Part shown: piece after piece, positions 1 to 9,984 of the stretch
How the letters are laid out: each line of letters starts with the position of its first letter
Position numbering within the stretch: the stretch's first letter is position 1
DNA from: Egibacteraceae bacterium
GTDB lineage: Bacteria; Actinomycetota; Nitriliruptoria; Euzebyales; Egibacteraceae
Assembly (NCBI GenBank): GCA_035540635.1
Contig: DATLGH010000034.1
Span: forward strand, 1 to 64,000
Reading direction: 5' to 3'
DNA: 64,000 bases
Position numbers and translations under genes: made by a program
Notes under the pieces: generated by a model
What the model was told of the DNA's origin: nothing
Database searches by the model: none
The model's input: only the letters and a program-made list of their open reading frames with translations

Positions 1-84
1 GGCCCCACCAGCCTCGGCGCCCACACCGGCGGCGGCGGGTCGGGGACGGGCGCCGCCGGTGTGGGCGCCGAGGCTGGTGGGGCC
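1..84. repeat. Perfect 34-bp inverted repeat at window start
   Basis: Bases 1-34 and 51-84 are exact reverse complements, separated by a 16-base spacer (35-50). The repeat begins exactly at base 1 and may extend further left. It lies inside the partial minus-strand frame, where the two arms encode different Pro-rich peptides. A stem this long and perfect in coding DNA is unusual. It could be a real hairpin or a fold-back artefact at a contig end. Confidence 0.9.
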
Positions 85-320
85 TGCTCGGTCCCGGGCG
101 GCGCGGCTTCGGGCGCGGCCTCGGCCACGGCGGCCGGGGGCGCCCCGCCGCCGCCGGGCGCGGCGATGACCGGTGGCGGACCGACTTCCGTGCGATGGAC
201 GGTCACCCCGGCCAGCGCCACGGTGAGCTGGACGGCGATGGCCGCCGCGGTCACGATCCGGCAGCGCTCCTGCCAGCTGCTCGCCCGACGCTGCTGCGGG
301 CTCGACGCGCGCACGTCCAT
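1..320 (-). CDS. Membrane-anchored Pro/Ala-rich protein, 5' part only
   Basis: A reading frame starts at ATG (complement of 318-320), preceded by a G-rich Shine-Dalgarno-like stretch. It stays open to the window edge, giving about 106 residues. The N-terminus is short and basic (MDVRASSPQQRRASSW). A hydrophobic segment of about 20 residues follows (IVTAAAIAVQLTVALAGVTV), then a tail rich in Pro and Ala. This is the usual look of a single-pass protein with a disordered extracytoplasmic linker before a C-terminal domain that lies outside the window. The gene is divergent from the thiolase with 134 bp between starts. The last coding stretch in view sits inside a perfect 34-bp inverted repeat, so the frame beyond base 50 may be an assembly effect. 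Function unknown. Confidence 0.55.
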   Translation of the reverse strand, partial: MDVRASSPQQRRASSWQERCRIVTAAAIAVQLTVALAGVTVHRTEVGPPPVIAAPGGGGAPPAAVAEAAPEAAPPGTEQAPPASAPTPAAPVPDPPPPVWAPRLVG

Positions 321-454
321 CTGGCCCCCCGAGAAGGTTCCGGCCCCACACAATGGCGGCTCCCGCTGCGGGGGGCAAGGGGTTCCTGGCTGCTCTGCGG
401 CGGCCCCGCGGTCCGGCGCTACCCTCGGCGCCCCGCCGCCGGAAGGAGCACGCC

Positions 455-1669
455 GTGCCAGAGCCCGTGATCGTGGCCGCGACCCGCAGCCCGGTGGGCA
501 GGGCGTTCAAGGGGTCGCTCGTCCACCTGCGACCCGACGACCTGGCCGCGGCGATGGTCACCGCGGTCCTCGACAAGATCCCTGAGCTCGACCGCACCGA
601 GATCGACGACCTCATGCTCGGCTGCGGCCTGCCGGGCGGCGAGCAGGGCTTCAACATGGCGCGGGTCGTCGCGATCCTCGCCGGGCTGCCGACGGTCCCC
701 GGCACGACCGTCACCCGCTACTGCTCCTCGAGCCTGCAGACCATCCGGATGGCGGCGCACGCCATCAGAGCGGGGGAGGGCGACGTCTTCGTCGCGGCGG
801 GGGTGGAGACCGTCAGCCGCTTCGCCAAGGGCAGCGCCGACAGCCTGCCCGACACGCGCAACCCCCGCTTCGCCGAGGCGGGCGAGCGCACCGCGCGGCG
901 CGCCGACGGCGGCGCGGGTCCGTGGGAGCCCCATGCGGGCCTGCCCGACGTCTACATCGCGATGGGCCAGACCGCCGAGAACGTCGCGCAGCTGGAGGGG
1001 GTGACCCGCGAGGGGATGGACGCCTTCGCCCTGCGCAGCCAGACGCGCGCCGTGGCGGCGCAGCGCAGCGGGTTCTTCGACCGGGAGATCACCCCCGTGA
1101 CCTTGCCGGACGGCACGGTGGTGGCCGCCGACGACGGGCCCCGCCCGAACACGAGCCTCGAGAAGCTCGCGAGCCTCGAGCCGGTGTTCCGCCCCGACGG
1201 CACCGTCACCGCCGGCAACGCCTGCCCCTTGAACGACGGTGCCGCCGCGGTCGTCGTCATGAGCGACGAGAAGGCCCGCCGGCTCGGCGTGGCGCCCCTC
1301 GCGCGGGTCGTCGCGAGCGGCGTGTCGGCCCTGGACCCCGAGATCATGGGGCTCGGGCCGATCGGCGCGACCCGGCAGGCGCTCGCGCGGGCGGGCATGA
1401 CCATCGCCGACGTCGACCTCGTGGAGATCAACGAGGCGTTCGCCGCGCAGGTCATCCCCTCCGCCCGCCGCCTCGACGTGGACATAGAGCGCCAGCTGAA
1501 CGTCAACGGCGGCTCCATCGCCATCGGCCACCCCTTCGGGATGACCGGGGCGCGCATCATGTGCACGCTGCTGAACGGGCTGGCCACCGCGGACAAGGTC
1601 GTGGGGCTCGAGACGATGTGCGTAGGGGGCGGTCAGGGGATGGCGATGATCGTCGAGCGGCTCCGCTGA
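455..1669 (+). CDS. Acetyl-CoA C-acyltransferase (thiolase)
   Basis: Thiolase of 404 residues, the usual length for the family. It either condenses two acyl-CoA units or cleaves 3-ketoacyl-CoA in beta-oxidation. The three catalytic residues are visible: the nucleophile Cys90 in RYCSSSLQT, His359 in IAIGHPFGMTGAR, and the general-base Cys389 in MCVGGGQGMAM. I chose GTG at 455 because GGAAGGAG lies just upstream and translation then begins VPEPVIVAATRSPVGRAFKG, the standard thiolase N-terminus. An upstream in-frame ATG at 353 would add 34 low-complexity residues. No other beta-oxidation gene is adjacent, so the pathway (degradative or biosynthetic) cannot be fixed from context. Confidence 0.93.
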   Translation: MPEPVIVAATRSPVGRAFKGSLVHLRPDDLAAAMVTAVLDKIPELDRTEIDDLMLGCGLPGGEQGFNMARVVAILAGLPTVPGTTVTRYCSSSLQTIRMAAHAIRAGEGDVFVAAGVETVSRFAKGSADSLPDTRNPRFAEAGERTARRADGGAGPWEPHAGLPDVYIAMGQTAENVAQLEGVTREGMDAFALRSQTRAVAAQRSGFFDREITPVTLPDGTVVAADDGPRPNTSLEKLASLEPVFRPDGTVTAGNACPLNDGAAAVVVMSDEKARRLGVAPLARVVASGVSALDPEIMGLGPIGATRQALARAGMTIADVDLVEINEAFAAQVIPSARRLDVDIERQLNVNGGSIAIGHPFGMTGARIMCTLLNGLATADKVVGLETMCVGGGQGMAMIVERLR

Positions 1670-1716
1670 TCGCCCTACCTGACCGGCACACTGTCCTGCC
1701 GGTCCCCTACTAAACA

Positions 1717-1730
1717 CCCCCAATTGGGGG
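1717..1730. promoter_or_regulatory. Palindrome CCCCCAATTGGGGG, candidate operator
   Basis: A perfect 14-bp palindrome in the gap between the thiolase and the histidine kinase. The AATT core is rare in this GC-rich sequence. A near copy (CCCCCTATTGGGGG) lies at 1800-1813, centre to centre 83 bp away, about eight helical turns. Binding factor unknown. Confidence 0.45.
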
Positions 1731-1768
1731 GTTCACAGACCGTCACCGGGTGTCTACACTCCCCCCTC

Positions 1769-3454
1769 GTGGCTACCAACGGCATAGGGTCGCGCTCATC
1801 CCCCTATTGGGGGGGCGACCGGCGGCAGACGCTCGCACGGCCAGGGGGGTCGCCGACGACCGCTCTCCTCGTTGGCGCGGGGCTCATCGTCGGCCTGTGG
1901 GCGCTGGTCAACCTCGTCGGCGGGCTGAGCGCCCCCGGCGCGGGCACCGACATGATTCTCCTCCACGCCTTGCTCGACACCGGTGCGGCGGCGCTTGCGG
2001 TGGTCGTGGCTGTGCTCTGCGTCGTGCGCTGGCGCCTGGTCGGGGAGGCGGCGGCGCTGTGGTCCGGCGTCGCGTTGCTCGTCTACGGGATCGTCACCCT
2101 CGCTCTCACGGGCGTGCTGCCGCACGTGTTCGACGTCGGTGATGCGGTCGTGTGGCTGCGGCCCGCCAGCCGCTTCGTCGTCATGGCGTTCCTCGCCGCC
2201 GCGGTCGTCAGCCCGCCCGTGGACGGGCGTCTCGGACTCACCAGGTTGCTCCTGTTCGCCGTGTCCGCGACCGTCGTCCTCGCCGTCGCGTTCCAGCTCA
2301 TTCCGGGTGCCTCCCAGTACCTCACCGGCGGGGCCGACGCCCATCTCGGCGTCCCGGCGAGCGGCTACGGCTCCCTCCTCGTCACGGTGCTGTGGGGCGC
2401 CCTGTTCGCCGGGTTCATGCTTCGCGGCCACCGGGAGAGCCGTCCGCTGCTCAGCTGGCTGGGCCTGCTCCTCCTCGGGCTGGCGTTGGCGGAGCTCACC
2501 CGGCTCCTCGCGGCCTACAACGTCGACCTGTGGAGCGCCGGCGCCCATCTCCTGCGGCTCACGGCCCTGGCCGTCGCCATGGCCGGAGCGACCATCGAGC
2601 TGCAACGCGCGTTCAGCCTCCAGAGCGACCACCTCATGCGGACGGTGGTGTCGGCCCGCGCCGCGGAGGCACGCGTCCGCGCCGAGCGCCAGGAGGTCGA
2701 GGAGCGCGCGCACGAGGCCCGTAACGCGCTCACGGCGATCGAGGGGGCGAGCCAGACACTCGAGCGCTACCGCGACCGCCTCGACGCCGACACCCGCAGC
2801 TCGCTCATGACGGCGTTGAGTGCGGAGATCGCACGGCTGCAGCGGCTCGTGAGCGCGGAGAAGATCACCGCGGACCGGGTGCCGTTCAAGGTCGCCGAGT
2901 CGCTGGCCCCGGTCGTCACCGGCGCGCGTACGCACGGTGCCGGTGTGCTCGTCGACATCGACGACGAGCTCACCGCCTTCGGCCGCTGGGCCGACACGGC
3001 CGAGGTGGTGCAGAACCTCATCGAGAACGCCCGGCGCTACGCTCCCGGCTCACCCGTGGTCGTCCGCGCCCGTCGCGAGTGCGATAGAGTGCTCGTGCGC
3101 GTGGAGGACCGCGGCCCCGGCGTCGCCCCGGAGCAGCGCGAGGCGATCTTCCGTCGGGGCGTACGCGGCAAGCAGGGCGACGGCGTCGCGGGGTCGGGAC
3201 TCGGCCTGTACGTGTCGGCCCGGCTCATGCGCGACCAGGGGGGTGACCTCCGGCTGGAGGACCGCCCGGGCGGCGGTGCGGTCTTCGTGGTGGACCTGCC
3301 GGCTGAGGAGGACTCAGCGGTCGAGACCGGTGGAGGGGGGCATGTCGAGGGCGTCAGCACAGCGCTGGACGAGCGCGACGAGGCTCCCGAGGTCGTCGAG
3401 GGGGACGGACCTGCCGCCCACCCTCGCCGTGCCGAGCGCGGGGGCCTCCGGTAG
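1769..3454 (+). CDS. Membrane histidine kinase
   Basis: Sensor kinase with about eight hydrophobic segments in its N-terminal half (for example ALLVGAGLIVGLWALVNLVG and AALAVVVAVLCVV) and no obvious extracytoplasmic domain, so it probably senses within the membrane. A helical linker follows, with the dimerisation/phospho-acceptor motif ERAHEARNALTAIEG. The HATPase domain has N-box ENARRYAP, G1 EDRGPGVAPEQ and G2 GSGLGLYVS. GTG at 1769 gives 561 residues. A TTG at 1724 would lie inside the palindrome and is less likely. The last ~45 residues, after FVVDLPAEED, are low-complexity and lie antisense to the next gene. Likely partner: the regulator at 3719. Confidence 0.85.
   Translation: MATNGIGSRSSPYWGGDRRQTLARPGGSPTTALLVGAGLIVGLWALVNLVGGLSAPGAGTDMILLHALLDTGAAALAVVVAVLCVVRWRLVGEAAALWSGVALLVYGIVTLALTGVLPHVFDVGDAVVWLRPASRFVVMAFLAAAVVSPPVDGRLGLTRLLLFAVSATVVLAVAFQLIPGASQYLTGGADAHLGVPASGYGSLLVTVLWGALFAGFMLRGHRESRPLLSWLGLLLLGLALAELTRLLAAYNVDLWSAGAHLLRLTALAVAMAGATIELQRAFSLQSDHLMRTVVSARAAEARVRAERQEVEERAHEARNALTAIEGASQTLERYRDRLDADTRSSLMTALSAEIARLQRLVSAEKITADRVPFKVAESLAPVVTGARTHGAGVLVDIDDELTAFGRWADTAEVVQNLIENARRYAPGSPVVVRARRECDRVLVRVEDRGPGVAPEQREAIFRRGVRGKQGDGVAGSGLGLYVSARLMRDQGGDLRLEDRPGGGAVFVVDLPAEEDSAVETGGGGHVEGVSTALDERDEAPEVVEGDGPAAHPRRAERGGLR
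1800..1813. promoter_or_regulatory. Near-palindrome CCCCCTATTGGGGG, second candidate operator
   Basis: Differs from the upstream palindrome at 1717-1730 by one base in the core. If translation of the kinase starts at 1769, this copy lies inside the first codons. The pair would then flank the start codon, a geometry suited to looping or autorepression. Inference from sequence only. Confidence 0.4.
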
Positions 3455-3643
3455 ACGGATCACCACGGAGGCCTCCAGCTCGGTCTCTTCCGTGCCGACG
3501 AGGGCGATGTCGAAGTGGCCCTCGGCCTCGTCGCCGTCGAGGACCACGACGTCACGGTCCTCGCGGCTGAGCACCCGCGACAGCGCGTCGCTGAACAGTC
3601 GCGGCTCGACCGCGATGGCCAGACGGCGGCGGGCAGGCGTCAT
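3314..3643 (-). CDS. Degenerate stand-alone receiver-like protein
   Basis: Protein of 109 residues that looks like the receiver domain of NarL-type regulators: RLAIAVEPRLFSDALSRVLS matches the family's first strand and helix. The acidic pocket is reduced, and where the phosphorylated Asp is expected the sequence reads FDIALVGTEE, with Gly at about position 50. No DNA-binding domain follows. It is divergent from the response regulator at 3719 with a 75-bp gap that holds a candidate operator. Its 3' end overlaps the kinase gene tail-to-tail by 141 bp. It may act as a phosphorylation-independent partner or decoy. High third-position GC supports coding, but no strong ribosome site is visible. Confidence 0.55.
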   Translation of the reverse strand: MTPARRRLAIAVEPRLFSDALSRVLSREDRDVVVLDGDEAEGHFDIALVGTEETELEASVVIRLPEAPALGTARVGGRSVPLDDLGSLVALVQRCADALDMPPSTGLDR

Positions 3644-3677
3644 GAGAAGAGGATGGCCTGTCGCCTACCGTCCGTCA

Positions 3678-3693
3678 TCCCTAATATTGATGA
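3678..3693. promoter_or_regulatory. Candidate operator (13/16 match) upstream of response regulator
   Basis: Bases TCCCTAATATTGATGA match TCATCAATATTGATGA (exact palindrome at 4519-4534) at 13 of 16 positions, with the core and right half intact. It lies 25 bp before the regulator ATG and between two divergent genes, which suits autoregulation. Confidence 0.55.
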
Positions 3694-3718
3694 GCATGTG
3701 GGAATGTGCGGGGCTGCC

Positions 3719-4375
3719 ATGAACACACGGATCCTGATCGTCGAGGACCACGCGCTGCTGGCGCAGAGCCTGCAGTTCGCCCTGGAGGACGACGGCTACG
3801 AGGTCGAGGTTGCCGCGGACATCAGCCCTGAGGCGGTGGTGAAGGCGGCTGACCGCTTCCGGCCCGCTATCGTCCTCCTCGACCTCGACCTCGGCGACGA
3901 GGGCTCCTCCCTGCCGATCATCCCGCCGCTGCGGGACATCGGCGCCTGCGTCGTCATGGTGACCGGTGAGGAGAACCGCGCGCGCCTCGGCGAGTGCGTG
4001 AACGCCGGGGCGATGGGGATCGTGCCGAAGTCGGCGCCCTTCGGCGATCTCGTCAGCGCCGTGCGCGAGGCCGCGGAGCTGCGCAGCCTGCTGCCGAAGC
4101 CCGACCGCGACGCGCTGCTCGCCGAGATGCGCCGCCAGCACGCCGAGGCCGAGAAGCGCCTCGCCGCCTTCTCCCGCCTCACCATGCGGGAGAAGGAGGT
4201 CCTCGCCGGCCTCTGCGACGGCAAGTCCGCCGAGACCATGGCCACCGAGGCGTTCGTGTCCCTCGCGACCATCCGCAGCCAGATTCGCACGCTGCTGCAG
4301 AAGCTCGGCGTCAACTCCCAGATCGGCGCCGTCGCCATGGCCCGCCGCGCCGGCTGGGAGCTCGACCGCGACTGA
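3719..4375 (+). CDS. NarL/LuxR-family response regulator
   Basis: DNA-binding response regulator of 218 residues. The N-terminal receiver has the acidic pair in ILIVEDHALL and a phospho-acceptor, probably Asp55, in AIVLLDLDLGDE. A helical linker leads to a C-terminal LuxR-type helix-turn-helix (SRLTMREKEVLAGLCDGKSA, then ATIRSQIRTLLQKLGVNSQI). ATG at 3719 gives the canonical start MNTRILIVEDH; an upstream frame from 3515 is antisense to the receiver-like gene. It follows the histidine kinase and precedes the Tad pilus genes. AT-rich palindromes occur both upstream of it and upstream of flp, making it the likely controller of pilus expression. Confidence 0.9.
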   Translation: MNTRILIVEDHALLAQSLQFALEDDGYEVEVAADISPEAVVKAADRFRPAIVLLDLDLGDEGSSLPIIPPLRDIGACVVMVTGEENRARLGECVNAGAMGIVPKSAPFGDLVSAVREAAELRSLLPKPDRDALLAEMRRQHAEAEKRLAAFSRLTMREKEVLAGLCDGKSAETMATEAFVSLATIRSQIRTLLQKLGVNSQIGAVAMARRAGWELDRD

Positions 4376-4518
4376 CCCGCATTCGCCGGGGTTGCCACGC
4401 CCCGACACGGCGGCCCCCATCGACGAGCACGGTCGTCTGCCCACGCCATCATCGGGGCGCCGACGGCCACGCGGCCTCGCGTTCTCCACCCGAGTAGTAC
4501 GCAAGCCGTGGCCCCGGG

Positions 4519-4534
4519 TCATCAATATTGATGA
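4519..4534. promoter_or_regulatory. Perfect palindrome TCATCAATATTGATGA, candidate operator
   Basis: A 16-bp perfect palindrome, 75% AT in a genome of over 70% GC, placed 158 bp before the flp start. Near copies sit at 3678-3693 and 4586-4601. The most economical binder is the LuxR-type regulator encoded at 3719; LuxR-family dimers bind palindromes of about this size. Confidence 0.65.
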
Positions 4535-4585
4535 TCGCAGCGCCGCCAACGCCGACGAAGCCTCCCGAAACGGACGAGGGGACAT

Positions 4586-4601
4586 TCATCAATCTTGGGG
4601 A
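4586..4601. promoter_or_regulatory. Candidate operator, 13/16 copy closest to flp
   Basis: TCATCAATCTTGGGGA keeps the left half of the palindrome intact and differs at three positions on the right. It lies 91 bp before the flp ATG, and its centre is 67 bp from that of the perfect copy. Confidence 0.5.
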
Positions 4602-4691
4602 TGACGCCCTCCCCCGGCCGCGCGACTATTCCGTCATCAAGCAAGACGTTCGCACGAAGGCGGGCGTCGCGAGCACCAGGAGAAGATCACA

Positions 4692-4904
4692 ATGATTCAC
4701 GCACTTGTCACCCTCCAGATGCTGGCGCAGCGCGCCGGCGAGCGTCTCAACCGCGAAGAGACCGGCGCCACTGCCGTTGAGTACGGCCTGCTGGTCGCCC
4801 TTATCGCTGCCGTCATCGCCGCTACGGTCTTCACCCTCGGTGGCGAGATCGATACTGCATTCCAGACCGTCGTCGACTGTATCCAGGCCCCCGCCGCCTG
4901 CTAG
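4692..4904 (+). CDS. flp: Flp-type pilin (major Tad pilus subunit)
   Basis: Small prepilin of 70 residues. It shows the Flp processing site: a hydrophilic leader, then Gly25 followed by ATAVEYGLL, with the conserved Glu at +5 of the mature protein and Tyr next to it. A hydrophobic helix (VALIAAVIAATVFTLGG) follows. Mature length would be about 45 residues, typical for Flp. It has two Cys near the C-terminus (DCIQAPAAC) that could form a disulfide. AGGAG lies upstream of the ATG. A strong hairpin just after the stop would let this gene be transcribed far more than the assembly genes downstream. Confidence 0.92.
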   Translation: MIHALVTLQMLAQRAGERLNREETGATAVEYGLLVALIAAVIAATVFTLGGEIDTAFQTVVDCIQAPAAC

Positions 4905-4926
4905 TTAGCTAGCCAAGCCGCACAAC

Positions 4927-4965
4927 GGGAGGCCCGGTGGTTCCTTCGGGGCCGCCGGGCCTCCC
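4927..4965 (+). terminator. Strong hairpin after flp (terminator or attenuator)
   Basis: GGGAGGCCCGG and CCGGGCCTCCC form an extended stem, with one G-U wobble, around a TTCCTTCGGG-type loop. No U-run follows, as is usual in high-GC actinobacteria. Its position suggests partial termination or mRNA stabilisation that separates pilin output from the rest of the operon. Confidence 0.7.
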
Positions 4966-4991
4966 ACTCTTACTACGCACGAGGTCCACCG

Positions 4992-5160
4992 ATGAACACG
5001 AGCGAGTCGAACCTCGGCGATGGTCTGGCCTGCTCGGGCGCAGGCGAGCAGGGTGCTACCGCCGTTGACTACGCACTGATCGCCGCGGTCATGCAGGAAT
5101 CGTCGGCACGTCGGTCAGCAGATACTCAACCTCTTCACCAACCTCGAAGGTGCGTTCTGA
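4992..5160 (+). pseudogene. Second Flp-type pilin with two single-base deletions
   Basis: From ATG at 4992 the frame encodes a leader, then GEQGATAVDYALIAAV, a clear Flp processing site with Asp replacing Glu at +5. After base 5090 the frame is lost. Restoring one base near 5092 gives AGIVGTSV, and restoring one more near 5118 gives QILNLFTNLEGAF followed by TGA at 5158-5160, an excellent Flp C-terminus. The 169 bases plus two make 57 whole codons. As written, the frame instead runs to 5165 and makes a 57-residue protein with an unrelated C-terminus. Two sequencing errors are possible, but the sites are not homopolymers. Confidence 0.7.
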
Positions 5161-5161
5161 C

Positions 5162-5566
5162 ATGAAGCGGCGGCGTGGACACAACGGCGAGCGCGGCGCA
5201 GCCGCCGTCGAGTTCGCCCTCGTATTCCCACTCCTCATCGTTTTGCTCTTTGGGATACTCGTATTCGGCCTGGTGTTCTTTCAATGGCAAGGCGTCCAGG
5301 CCGCCGCTCGGGAGGGCGCTCGCATGGCATCCCTGAGCCAGACCACGCAAGCTCAGATCCGCGACCGTGTTGACAACTCCTTGCAAGGCGTTCCACTCCC
5401 CAACGGCCGGACGATCGCCGTTGATCCCAACGTGGCCCGTCCGTGCAATTTCCGCGCAGGTCAAACCGTCAGGGTGCGAGTGGCTACTACCACCACCATC
5501 AATATCCCGCTCATCCCCACCGCAACGGTGTCCCTTGGGGGACAGGGAGTCTTCCGGTGCGAATAG
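5162..5566 (+). CDS. tadE: TadE-like minor pseudopilin
   Basis: Protein of 134 residues with the TadE signature: basic leader MKRRRGHNGERG, cleavage after Gly12, then AAAVEFALVFPLLIVLLFGI with Glu at +5. The pseudopilin helix continues into WQGVQAAAREGARMAS, very typical of the family. The remainder is a small extracytoplasmic domain. The ATG at 5162 overlaps the end of the decayed pilin frame. TadE is thought to be processed like Flp and to help pilus initiation. It overlaps the next gene, so the two are translationally coupled. Confidence 0.88.
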   Translation: MKRRRGHNGERGAAAVEFALVFPLLIVLLFGILVFGLVFFQWQGVQAAAREGARMASLSQTTQAQIRDRVDNSLQGVPLPNGRTIAVDPNVARPCNFRAGQTVRVRVATTTTINIPLIPTATVSLGGQGVFRCE

Positions 5567-6543
5567 CTGCCCGCATCGAAGTTATTCCCCAGGATCACGG
5601 TGCAGTCTCGGTCATGGTGGCCGTGTGCCTCGTCATGCTGTTCGGTGCCACAGCCCTGGCCGTGGATGCTGGCCGCTTGTGGGAGCAACGTCGCCATCTT
5701 GTCACGACCACCGACGCCGCGGCGCTCGCTGCTGCCCAGTTGTACGGCGAGGCCAGCAATGGCTGCGCGGCCGCCCCTGGTTGGATAGCTAACAACCACG
5801 CCACCGCCGCCATGACATCCTGCAACCTGGTTCCCATTGGCTCAAATGCCGGCCATGTCACCGTACAAGCCCGCACGGACGTCGACTTCTCCTTCGCACC
5901 GGCCCTGCCTAGCGCCCCTAGCAGCGCAAGCGTGCCATCCAGCTCCACGGCCATCTTCGGCCAGGCCAACACCGTGTTTGGCTTGCGCCCGATCGGCATC
6001 TGCAAGGACCACCCTGCGCTCCAAGCATGGATCACCGCGGGTGCTCAGGACGATGGCCAGATACACCGCATCGGCTATAACAAGAATGACAACGCCCACT
6101 GCGGCGAGGCCACTGGGAACTGGGGCCTGATGGCCTTCACCGGTGAGCAGTCAAACGCGGTGTTCAAAGAGCACGTGGAGGTGGGGTACGACGGCGGCGT
6201 TTCCATCGGCGATGAAGTGCGTGCGAGCACCGGGTCGTTCAACAACTCCATTCAGCCTCAGTTGAACACGCTCAAGGGGCAAACCTTCGCGGTGCCCATC
6301 TTCAGCTCGGTCATCGATCCAAACGGGCAGAACGCCCGCTACGTCATCTCCGGGTTCCTGACCATCACCCTGCACGATTTCAAGGTCACAGGCGCTGCGG
6401 CTGGTCGCTGGATGGACGTTGAGTTTCACCGGCGCGCCCTTACAGGGACATGCTGCTCAAGCGGGCCTTCGACCGGAGCGATCGTCATCGCCATCTGCGC
6501 GGTGGACCCCGATGCCACGGCCATCGCAGCTTGCAACCCTTAA
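5557..6543 (+). CDS. TadG-like pilus-associated protein
   Basis: Protein of 328 residues starting with the TadE/TadG-like N-terminal region: a short leader, then GAVSVMVAVCLVMLFGATAL and AVDAGRLWEQRRHLVTTTDA, as in putative Flp assembly TadG proteins. The GTG at 5557 overlaps the tadE stop and has GGGAG upstream. The large C-terminal part is extracytoplasmic, with several Cys residues and no family I recognise. Base composition is distinctly lower in GC than the flanking genes, and codons such as AAC, AAG and CAA are more frequent. That suggests faster divergence or acquisition of this surface-exposed part. Confidence 0.8.
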   Translation: MRIAARIEVIPQDHGAVSVMVAVCLVMLFGATALAVDAGRLWEQRRHLVTTTDAAALAAAQLYGEASNGCAAAPGWIANNHATAAMTSCNLVPIGSNAGHVTVQARTDVDFSFAPALPSAPSSASVPSSSTAIFGQANTVFGLRPIGICKDHPALQAWITAGAQDDGQIHRIGYNKNDNAHCGEATGNWGLMAFTGEQSNAVFKEHVEVGYDGGVSIGDEVRASTGSFNNSIQPQLNTLKGQTFAVPIFSSVIDPNGQNARYVISGFLTITLHDFKVTGAAAGRWMDVEFHRRALTGTCCSSGPSTGAIVIAICAVDPDATAIAACNP

Positions 6544-6569
6544 CAACAACTAAAGGAAAGAGACGGACA

Positions 6570-7358
6570 ATGGCAAGACGGATACTCGGTATCGTGGCGG
6601 CGGTGGTGCTCGCCGCGGTCGGCACGGGCGTGCTAGTGCTGTACGTGCAGGGCGCCGAGCAGCGCGCCCTGGCCGGTGAGCGCACCGTCGACGTGCTCGT
6701 CGTGCAGGCGCCCATCAAGAAGGGCACGACCGCCGAGCAGTTGGCGGGTCTGGTCGAGTCCAGCAAGATCCCGGCCAAGGTGCAGGCCATCGACAGCGTC
6801 AGCAGCCTCGACGAGCTCGACGGCAAGGTCGCCGCAGTGGACCTCGTGGTCGGCGAGCAGCTCGTCGCCACGCGCTTCGTCGAACCGGCGCAGCTGGCTC
6901 GTACCGGCTCCGTGGACATCCCCGACGGTCTGCAGCAGGTGACCCTGTCGCTGGAGCCGCAGCGGGCTGTCGGCGGCCGGCTCGCGCCGGGGGACACGGT
7001 CGGGGTGTTCATCTCCTTCGCGCCGTTCGACCTGGAGGGCGTCATCCTATCGGACGAGGAGGGGAACACCGCGGAGGTCAGCAAGACACCGAACACCACA
7101 CACCTCACTTTCCACAAGGTCCTGGTGACCAACGTCCAGGGCGAGGCCGCGCCCGCAGCCGAGGACGACGAGGACGCCACCACCGGTCCCACGCCCGCAC
7201 CCGGCGGGAGCTACCTGATCACCCTGGCGGTCGACGCGGCCCAAGCCGAGCGGATCGTCTTCGCCGCCGAGTTCGGGCTCCTGTGGCTGTCCAACGAGCC
7301 GGGCGCCGCCGTTGAGGACGGGACCGAGATCCGCACGAGAGGAAACGTGTACCCATGA
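6570..7358 (+). CDS. cpaB: Flp pilus assembly protein CpaB/RcpC
   Basis: Protein of 262 residues. An N-terminal membrane anchor (RILGIVAAVVLAAVGTGVLV) is followed by a SAF-like domain (VLVVQAPIKKGTTAEQL) and the CpaB C-terminal region with LAPGDTVGVFISF. An acidic linker (AAEDDEDATTG) precedes the last domain. CpaB is a periplasmic or extracytoplasmic part of the Tad machine; in a monoderm it probably supports the pilus through the wall. ATG at 6570 follows an AAAGGAAAG ribosome site. It starts the assembly gene cluster and overlaps cpaE (ATGA). Confidence 0.88.
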   Translation: MARRILGIVAAVVLAAVGTGVLVLYVQGAEQRALAGERTVDVLVVQAPIKKGTTAEQLAGLVESSKIPAKVQAIDSVSSLDELDGKVAAVDLVVGEQLVATRFVEPAQLARTGSVDIPDGLQQVTLSLEPQRAVGGRLAPGDTVGVFISFAPFDLEGVILSDEEGNTAEVSKTPNTTHLTFHKVLVTNVQGEAAPAAEDDEDATTGPTPAPGGSYLITLAVDAAQAERIVFAAEFGLLWLSNEPGAAVEDGTEIRTRGNVYP

Positions 7359-8563
7359 CCGACAGCCGCATCGTGCTGGCGACCACCGACCCCGACTACG
7401 AGCGCCGCCTGCGCAGCGCCTACGCGGGGGCGCTCAACGGTGACCTGCGTACGCTCTCCGACGAGGTGCTCGGCCTGCCGGCATCCCAGATCGTCGAGGC
7501 GATCGCCGGGGGCTCGTCCCCCGTCGAGGTCCTCGCCCTGGGCCCGGGCTTGCCGGTCGAGGAATCACTCGAGCTGGCGCGCCGCTTCGACCTCGACCAT
7601 CCCGAAGTCAGCGTCGTGCTCATCACCCGGCCCTCAGCCGACTTGTGGGCCAAAGCCGCACGCTCCGGCGTGCGCGACATCCTCGATCCCGACGCCGACT
7701 CCGCGGAGCTCCTCGACGTCATGGAGCGGGCCAGCCAGAGCGCCGTGCGGCGCCGGGCCAGCTTCGCCGGGGACCCCGATGCCGCAGACGCCACCCCCGG
7801 TCATATCATCACCATCGTCTCTCCGAAGGGCGGGTCCGGCAAGACCACCGTGGCGACCAACCTGGCCGTGGGCCTGGCCCAGGTCGCACCCGGAGAGGCC
7901 GTGATCGTCGACCTCGACCTGCAGTTCGGCGACGTGGCGGGGGCGTTGCAGCTCATCCCCGAGCACACCATGGCCGATGCCGCCCGCACCCCAGACCTCC
8001 TGGACGCCACCGCCCTCAAGGTGCTGCTCACCCCCCACAGCAGCGGGCTGTACGCGCTGTGCGCCCCCGACTCACCCGCCGAGGGCGAACTGATCACCGG
8101 CGAGGCCGTCACGGCGATCCTGCGGCGCCTCAGCGAGAACTTCCGCTACGTCATCATCGACTCCTCCGCAGGCCTGACGGAAGCGACCCTCTCGGCGCTC
8201 GAGGCGTCCACGGACATCATGCTGATGTGCTCCATGGACGTGCCCAGCGTGCGCAGCCTGCGCAAGGTCGTCGTGGCACTGGACCAGCTGCATATGACCA
8301 GCCAGCGCCGTCACCTGGTGCTCAACCGCGCCGACACTCGCGTCGGCATGTCCGCACAGGACGTCGAAGCCACCGTCGGGCTGCCCGTCGACGTCGCCGT
8401 GGCCAGCAGCAGAGCCGTTCCCCTCGCCATCAACCAGGGCATCCCGCTGGTGCTCAGCGACGCCAAGCACCCCGTGTCCAAGCAGCTTGCGCAGCTTGTC
8501 GGGCGGTTCGTGGAGCAGCCGGCCAGAGCCGGGCGGTTCGGCAAGCGGAGGAGCACCCGATGA
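7355..8563 (+). CDS. cpaE: Tad pilus localisation ATPase CpaE/TadZ
   Basis: MinD/ParA-type ATPase of 402 residues. Residues 1-130 form a receiver-like domain without a phospho-acceptor (VLALGPGLP where the Asp would be), as in other CpaE/TadZ proteins. The deviant Walker A SPKGGSGKTT lies at 156-165, with IVDLDLQFGDVAG as the signature A' region and YVIIDSSAG as Walker B. TadZ marks the cell site where the pilus is built. Coupled to cpaB and cpaF by 4-bp overlaps. Confidence 0.93.
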   Translation: MTDSRIVLATTDPDYERRLRSAYAGALNGDLRTLSDEVLGLPASQIVEAIAGGSSPVEVLALGPGLPVEESLELARRFDLDHPEVSVVLITRPSADLWAKAARSGVRDILDPDADSAELLDVMERASQSAVRRRASFAGDPDAADATPGHIITIVSPKGGSGKTTVATNLAVGLAQVAPGEAVIVDLDLQFGDVAGALQLIPEHTMADAARTPDLLDATALKVLLTPHSSGLYALCAPDSPAEGELITGEAVTAILRRLSENFRYVIIDSSAGLTEATLSALEASTDIMLMCSMDVPSVRSLRKVVVALDQLHMTSQRRHLVLNRADTRVGMSAQDVEATVGLPVDVAVASSRAVPLAINQGIPLVLSDAKHPVSKQLAQLVGRFVEQPARAGRFGKRRSTR

Positions 8564-9984
8564 GGCTGTCAGACCGCCTGAGCCAGGTCAACGGGGGCAC
8601 GCCGAGGGCGAACCCCACCGAGCACCGCGTGCTGCCGCTGCCGGCGCCACCAGAGGAGCCGGCGACTGACCCGCTGGTCGAGCTGAAGCAGCGCGCCGAG
8701 CAGTCGCTGTTCTCCCGGCTCGGGGCCCGCCTGTACGACGCATCACTCAGCGAGGAGCAGCTGCACACCTTCGTGCGCCAGGAGCTCAGTAAGGTGATCG
8801 CCGAGGAGCGCGCGCCCCTCTCCGACACCGAGCGGGACAACCTCGTCAGCGCCATCAGCGAGAACGTCCTCGGTTACGGGCCGGTGCAGCCGTTCCTCGA
8901 CGACCCCAGCGTGACCGAGGTGATGGTCAACGCGGAGAAGCGCATCTACATCGAGCGCGCGGGCAAGCTCGAGCGGACCAGCGCGCGGTTCTTCTCCGAC
9001 GACCACCTGCGGCGCGTGATCGAGCGCATCGTCAGCCAGGTCGGCCGCCGCATCGACGAGTCCTCCCCCATGGTCGACGCGCGCCTGCCCGACGGGTCGC
9101 GGGTCAACGCCATCATTCCCCCGCTGTCGGTGGACGGACCGACCCTGACCATCCGCAAGTTCGCCGCGGACCCCTACCAGACCGACGACCTCGTCGGCTT
9201 CGGCACCATGACCCCCGAGATCGCCGAACTGCTCGCCGCGTGCGTGCAGGGACGACTGAACATCCTGGTTTCCGGCGGGACCGGCACCGGCAAGACGACG
9301 ATGCTGAACGTCATCTCCTCGTTCGTGCCGCCTGGGGAGCGGATCGTGACCATCGAGGACTCCGTCGAGCTCCAGCTGCACCAAGACCACGTCGTCCGCC
9401 TCGAGGCCCGCCCGCCCAACATCGAAGGCAAGGGCGCGGTCGGCATCCGCGACCTGGTGCGCAACGCCCTGCGCATGCGCCCCGACCGCATCATCGTCGG
9501 CGAGGTCCGTGGCGGCGAGGCCCTCGACATGCTCCAGGCCATGAACACCGGCCACGACGGGTCACTGACGACCCTGCACGCCAACACCCCCCGCGACGCC
9601 ATCGCTCGCCTTGAAACCATGGTGCTGATGGCGGGCATGGACCTGCCGATGCGGGCCATCCGCGAGCAGATCTCCTCCGCAATCGACGTCATGGTGCACG
9701 TCACACGGCTGCGCGACGGGAGCCGGCGCATCACCCATGTCACCGAGGTGCACGGCATGGAGGGCGACGTCGTCACCCTCCAGGACATCTTCACGTTTGA
9801 CTACTCCGCAGGCATCGACGAGAGCGGCCGCTACCGCGGTGGCCAGCGTCCCACCGGCATCCGCCCGGCGTTCACCGAGCAGCTCAGCCACTACGGCATC
9901 CAGCTGCCGGTGCGCCTGTTCGGCCAGCCGGACAACGCCGCGGTCATCGAGGCCCTGCGCCCCGGCCGCCGGCCGCTGCCATGA
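8560..9984 (+). CDS. cpaF: Tad pilus motor ATPase CpaF/TadA
   Basis: Secretion-superfamily ATPase of 474 residues that powers Flp pilus extension (and probably retraction). Walker A GGTGTGKTT is at 239-247, with the Asp-box region RIVTIEDSVELQL, Walker B RPDRIIVGEVRGGEALDML and the His box SLTTLHANTP. The N-terminal domain (about residues 40-200) matches CpaF. Start ATG at 8560 overlaps the cpaE stop; a longer upstream frame is antisense noise. The hexamer would act with TadB and TadC, which follow directly. Confidence 0.96.
   Translation: MRLSDRLSQVNGGTPRANPTEHRVLPLPAPPEEPATDPLVELKQRAEQSLFSRLGARLYDASLSEEQLHTFVRQELSKVIAEERAPLSDTERDNLVSAISENVLGYGPVQPFLDDPSVTEVMVNAEKRIYIERAGKLERTSARFFSDDHLRRVIERIVSQVGRRIDESSPMVDARLPDGSRVNAIIPPLSVDGPTLTIRKFAADPYQTDDLVGFGTMTPEIAELLAACVQGRLNILVSGGTGTGKTTMLNVISSFVPPGERIVTIEDSVELQLHQDHVVRLEARPPNIEGKGAVGIRDLVRNALRMRPDRIIVGEVRGGEALDMLQAMNTGHDGSLTTLHANTPRDAIARLETMVLMAGMDLPMRAIREQISSAIDVMVHVTRLRDGSRRITHVTEVHGMEGDVVTLQDIFTFDYSAGIDESGRYRGGQRPTGIRPAFTEQLSHYGIQLPVRLFGQPDNAAVIEALRPGRRPLP

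Follow-up and report, generated by a model that had tools for sequence, protein, structure and literature searches.

A conserved palindrome as the predicted operator linking a LuxR-type response regulator to Flp/Tad pilus genes in an Egibacteraceae bacterium

Two described systems lie closest to the locus studied here. The PprAB two-component system of Pseudomonas aeruginosa directly and positively controls flp-rcp-tad and other adhesins (PMC3510237). BldM (and BldM-WhiI) of Streptomyces venezuelae controls a developmental regulon; BldM is an actinobacterial LuxR-family response regulator described as orphan and atypical, and its footprinted operator is a 16-bp palindrome, TCACCCGNNCGGGTGA (PMC4125116). 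Tad pilus switching in Actinomycetota is little described, and no operator for Tad pilus control in this phylum was found in the literature searched. We analyzed a 64-kb stretch of DNA from an Egibacteraceae bacterium (the window) in which an AT-rich palindrome recurs around a response regulator gene and the adjoining tad genes. The original prediction, made from the window alone, was that this regulator autoregulates and controls pilus expression.

The features of the locus are listed in Table 1. The regulator combines a receiver domain with a GerE helix-turn-helix, the arrangement that defines the NarL/FixJ (LuxR-type) family, and the PDB entries that matched it best over its full length were the response regulators NarL, DesR, VraR, and DevR. 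The phosphorylation residues D55, T82, and K104 are intact; D55 and K104 were invariant in 20 orthologs, and T82 was kept in at least 90%. A homolog of the kinase adjoins the regulator in most relatives. Downstream, an Flp pilin gene is followed by genes for TadE, TadG-like, RcpC, and TadZ proteins, the composition of a Tad/Flp pilus locus, within the region covered by the Pfam scan (to 8563). Between flp and these genes, a second flp-like open reading frame (4992-5165) matches Flp_Fap over 16 residues only and then seemingly leaves frame; it seems to be a pseudogene or an assembly error.

Table 1. Coordinates of the genes and predicted regulatory elements in the window
Feature	Position	Strand	Basis
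Membrane sensor histidine kinase, presumed partner of the regulator	1769..3454	+	Pfam HATPase_c, 6e-21
Divergent antisense gene between kinase and regulator, 109 aa; possible degenerate receiver	3314..3643	-	No Pfam match
Predicted -10 element (CATCCT) of the divergent gene	3650..3655	-	In register with 3676-3695 read on the minus strand
Predicted operator between the divergent gene and the regulator	3676..3695	-	PWM 21.5, rank 3
NarL/LuxR-family response regulator, proposed operator-binding protein	3719..4375	+	Pfam PF00072 Response_reg, 1.1e-13; PF00196 GerE, 4e-10
Exact palindrome, probable auxiliary upstream operator	4517..4536	+	PWM 25.7, rank 1
Predicted flp/tad operator, ATTCATCAATCTTGGGGATG	4584..4603	+	Relatives-only PWM 25.4, rank 2 of 64 kb; same spacing at relatives' Flp genes
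Predicted flp -10 element (GACTAT)	4624..4629	+	Register shared with flp-type promoters
Predicted start of flp transcription, an A; leader of 56 nt	4636	+	Inferred from aligned promoters
Major pilin gene flp, at the head of the tad locus	4692..4904	+	Pfam Flp_Fap, 4e-12
tad genes: TadE, TadG-like, RcpC/CpaB, TadZ/CpaE-like	5162..8563	+	Pfam TadE, Tad, RcpC, AAA_31

The palindrome TCATCAATATTGATGA was found in exact form at 4519-4534, and copies matching at 13 of 16 positions lie at 3678-3693 and 4586-4601, all three where they had been reported. The half-site TCATCAA, previously placed at 4633, is present one base further on, at 4634-4640. These motifs had also been called the most AT-rich of the region. 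The copies at 4519 (12/16 AT) and 3678 (11/16) are indeed among the AT-richest 16-mers of positions 1-9000, where GC content is 70% (72% for the window), but 16-mers at 6076 and 6539 tie with the former, and the copy at 4586 reaches only 9/16. The three matches in 64 kb compare with a mean of 0.02 and a maximum of 1 in shuffled sequence. Rather than occurring in many copies at unrelated loci, the motif, at up to three mismatches, was found at only seven places in the whole 3.46-Mb genome, three of them within a single 0.9-kb stretch (3678-4601); the reversed pattern, used as a control at the same tolerance, was found at none. Two further G/C-flanked palindromes surround the kinase start, CCCCCAATTGGGGGG at 1728-1742 and CCCCCTATTGGGGGG at 1799-1813. 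They were considered as extra operators and dropped because their spacing is unlike that of the operator motif.

A close ortholog of the regulator was present in 18 of 61 genomes (E ≤ 1.3e-42; next best match, 5e-23). The related records that carry names belong to Nitriliruptoria (Nitriliruptorales, Euzebyaceae, and Egibacteraceae), Acidimicrobiia, Nocardioides, and Pseudonocardia, with one Dormiibacterota MAG. De novo discovery of palindromic motifs in the relatives' loci, with the window excluded, returned CATCATCAATATTGATGATG with a log-likelihood of 189, compared with 29-38 for shuffles. When the resulting matrix was scanned over the 64 kb, the window's own sites ranked first to third (25.7, 25.4, and 21.5), and the next independent place scored 11.4. 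Separate analyses gave CATCCTCAATATTGAGGATG for Acidimicrobiia (with a few other loci) and CATCCCCAATATTGGGGATG for Nocardioides. In Acidimicrobiia, site density beside the regulator was ~40 times that of the remaining parts of these loci; some Acidimicrobiia loci gave no site in the motif scan. In some relatives, a TasA-like gene replaces flp downstream of the regulator yet keeps the site. The recognition helix begins with SEATVR in Nocardioides regulators and mostly with S[LVI][AT]T[VI]R in the others; together with the Nocardioides motif variant, this may be taken as an anecdotal hint of protein-DNA co-variation. Thus, the comparison of related genomes that had been proposed as a check revealed that the operator is kept beside regulator orthologs in Nitriliruptoria, Acidimicrobiia, and Nocardioides.

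The position of the site relative to the promoter was examined by aligning ungapped flp-type promoters on the first base of the operator. An A at offset 41 and a T at offset 45 occurred together in 12 of 14 promoters, and in 0 of 14 when identical sites were read backwards; offset 52 was an A in nine of the 14. The same register was observed in 8 of 10 Acidimicrobiia sites located behind the regulator. We read this register as a -10 element, [GC]ANNNT, with a predicted start at offset 52, which would place the operator center at about -42.5. A site near -41.5 that overlaps a missing or poor -35 element and is accompanied by a -10 element is the hallmark of class II activation, and 12 of the 14 promoters have this arrangement, centered at -42.5 from predicted starts. 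The composite of operator and -10 element had 16 exact matches in 66 genomes of the class (the 61 assessed for the regulator plus five added ones, G061-G065), and all 16 fell within seven regulator-bearing genomes (hypergeometric p = 4e-5). As a control, the reversed composite was searched in the same 66 genomes and gave no matches. The perfect palindrome (4517-4536) has no in-register -10 element in either direction and lies 67 bp upstream of the flp operator, center to center; it is thus probably an auxiliary site. On this promoter alignment, the predicted flp operator is the imperfect copy at 4584-4603 and not the perfect palindrome.

The third site, 3676-3695, fits the divergent gene. Read leftwards, it puts the predicted start at 3643, which coincides with the ATG of this gene and would make the transcript leaderless; at loci L045, L052, and L051, the divergent gene likewise begins at the predicted start or one base after it. 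Conservation of the -10 element in the divergent-gene promoters was partial (A in only 3 of 12; T in 9 of 12). The gene overlaps the 3' part of the kinase reading frame, and of 96 loci examined (duplicate records included), 26 have a homolog in this position. Its product has a confident alpha/beta AlphaFold model (pLDDT 85) with weak fold matches (E 5e-3 to 0.2), among the best of which were true receivers and the receiver-like linker domain of RcsC. An hhalign comparison with the regulator gave a probability of 54% over 34 columns only. From the model and these matches, the protein may be a degenerate receiver.

Toward the regulator, the center of the same site and the ATG are only ~33 bp apart (in most relatives, 15-55 bp), a spacing that gives no support to the regulator activating its own promoter in simple class II fashion. 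Because the spacing fits the divergent gene, while toward the regulator the site would cover the core promoter, both the existence and the sign of autoregulation are uncertain; this half of the original prediction was not secured. The overlap with the regulator core promoter might suggest that the regulator binds these sites mainly as a repressor. We consider this unlikely, since the flp site lies at -42.5 in a fixed register and its -10 element lacks the T with which the consensus begins, as promoters that depend on an activator usually do.

The co-occurrence of site and regulator served as a control. Flp_Fap genes were located in the 61 genomes, and the 500 bp upstream of each were scored with the matrix. 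In regulator-bearing genomes, a site was found upstream of 15 of 19 flp genes (13 distinct), in most cases at a distance of 144-184 bp from the Flp domain, whereas none of the 11 flp genes of regulator-less genomes had a site at that spacing (Mann-Whitney p = 8e-4). In G035, which has no regulator, the region upstream of flp gave a moderate shared score (15.7) with another spacing. Within the 500 bp scored, no site was found at the flp genes of regulator-bearing G048 and G057 (C203) or at the second flp of the window's genome (C21). Because the loci used to train the matrix took in most adjacent flp promoters, the independent tests are the non-adjacent flp genes and the Acidimicrobiia. Among the former, the flp with a site lies on another contig than the regulator in G014 and ~9 kb away from it in G030 and G034. 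Genome G021 has two tandem flp genes, each with its own site. At L049 (10070-10522), operator and flp are duplicated in tandem, and both copies have an in-register promoter of their own.

An alternative is that the operator serves another LuxR-family regulator, whose presence only coincides with that of the two-component system. Counting the regulator itself, the genome holds 27 matches to it at E ≤ 0.001, so the binder could be one of the other LuxR-type proteins; moreover, a large LuxR-type regulator (L194) has a strong site upstream. We nevertheless regard a different binder as quite improbable: the sites follow the ortholog group of the 3719 regulator from genome to genome and, in separate lineages, are clustered next to its gene, and its nearest paralogs stand much further off (E = 3e-18) than its orthologs (E < 1.3e-42). 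That the palindrome is a chance product or an AT-rich structural element with no binding protein is scarcely credible: AT-rich elements are conspicuous in 72% GC DNA and short palindromes do arise by chance, but three copies were found against 0.02 expected, the relatives' motif far exceeded its shuffles in log-likelihood, the same motif emerged de novo in three lineages, and the operator is conserved and stands in a fixed promoter register. By contrast, there is strong support for the predicted link to the pilus: across classes, the operator recurs beside orthologs, it precedes flp almost exclusively in regulator-bearing genomes, and at flp it has a fixed class II spacing to a -10 element.

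Sites at other genes outline a predicted regulon, whose gene names rest partly on reading translations. In the window's genome, a site with an in-register -10 element precedes a leaderless secreted coiled-coil protein (G000, contig C81, 11984), and in-register sites also precede a TldD-family gene, a small open reading frame, and the large LuxR-type regulator mentioned above. In-register sites were also found before the second tad cluster in the sister genome G001, before secreted proteins in G014, and before a sugar transferase in G016. In G025 and G042, sites that are not accompanied by an in-register -10 element lie before a gene with a type IV prepilin signature and before a secreted protein, respectively. 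The common theme of this predicted regulon is the cell surface and attachment. In addition, the strongest operator found in the window's genome (31.2) lies, with an in-register -10 element, in the hom-thrC gap (L192, 2746-2965). A strong GC hairpin with TTTT follows ~155 nt after it (fold z-score -3.9), and the operator perhaps drives a short terminated transcript or short RNA. This site was present in none of seven relatives and is thus lineage-specific.

Since the site stands at a fixed promoter distance and beside the regulator gene, the regulator very probably switches on surface attachment. We hold it to be highly likely that the 3719-4375 regulator uses the palindrome as its operator, activating flp/tad in a kinase-dependent manner. 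The binding, activation, and feedback that we infer would proceed as follows. The adjacent membrane kinase would phosphorylate the regulator, a dimer of which would then bind 20-bp sites with the pattern CATCATCAA-TA-TTGATGATG. Bound at 4584-4603 in place of a -35 element, it would activate the flp/tad promoter, and the perfect palindrome upstream would probably strengthen this activation. From 3676-3695, it would likewise activate the divergent leaderless gene, whose transcript, antisense between kinase and regulator, could give feedback. A broader reading is possible but doubtful: a conserved actinobacterial surface-attachment switch built from the kinase, the LuxR-type regulator, and the divergent antisense gene, which would encode a non-phosphorylatable receiver-like damper. 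In such a switch, the regulator would activate Flp/Tad pili (or, in relatives, TasA-like fibers, secreted surface proteins, and exopolysaccharide) together with the receiver-like gene, which would damp the response by antisense transcription and competition in the phosphorelay. For the operator itself, base resolution together with a promoter register kept over several classes should make attachment regulons predictable in uncultured lineages, and the flp operator offers a directly testable promoter in a cultured Nocardioides or acidimicrobial strain.

Like PprAB, the kinase/regulator pair is encoded with the pilus locus, and the predicted regulon has secreted surface proteins. It differs in belonging to another phylum, and the passages covered of the PprAB report describe neither a PprB operator nor a divergent receiver-like gene (PMC3510237). 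By analogy with what those passages describe, the locus may work like PprAB; we do not claim membership in that system. The operator shares the outer framework TCAYC-N6-GRTGA with that of BldM (PMC4125116), but its inner bases differ from TCACCCGNNCGGGTGA, and we do not assign it to the BldM type; unlike BldM, the regulator here keeps the phosphorylation residues in its receiver and has an adjacent kinase. NarL, DesR, VraR, and DevR share its two-domain architecture and have other operators and regulons. The regulon predicted here is thus a new one, of the kind known from PprAB and from the BldM operator.
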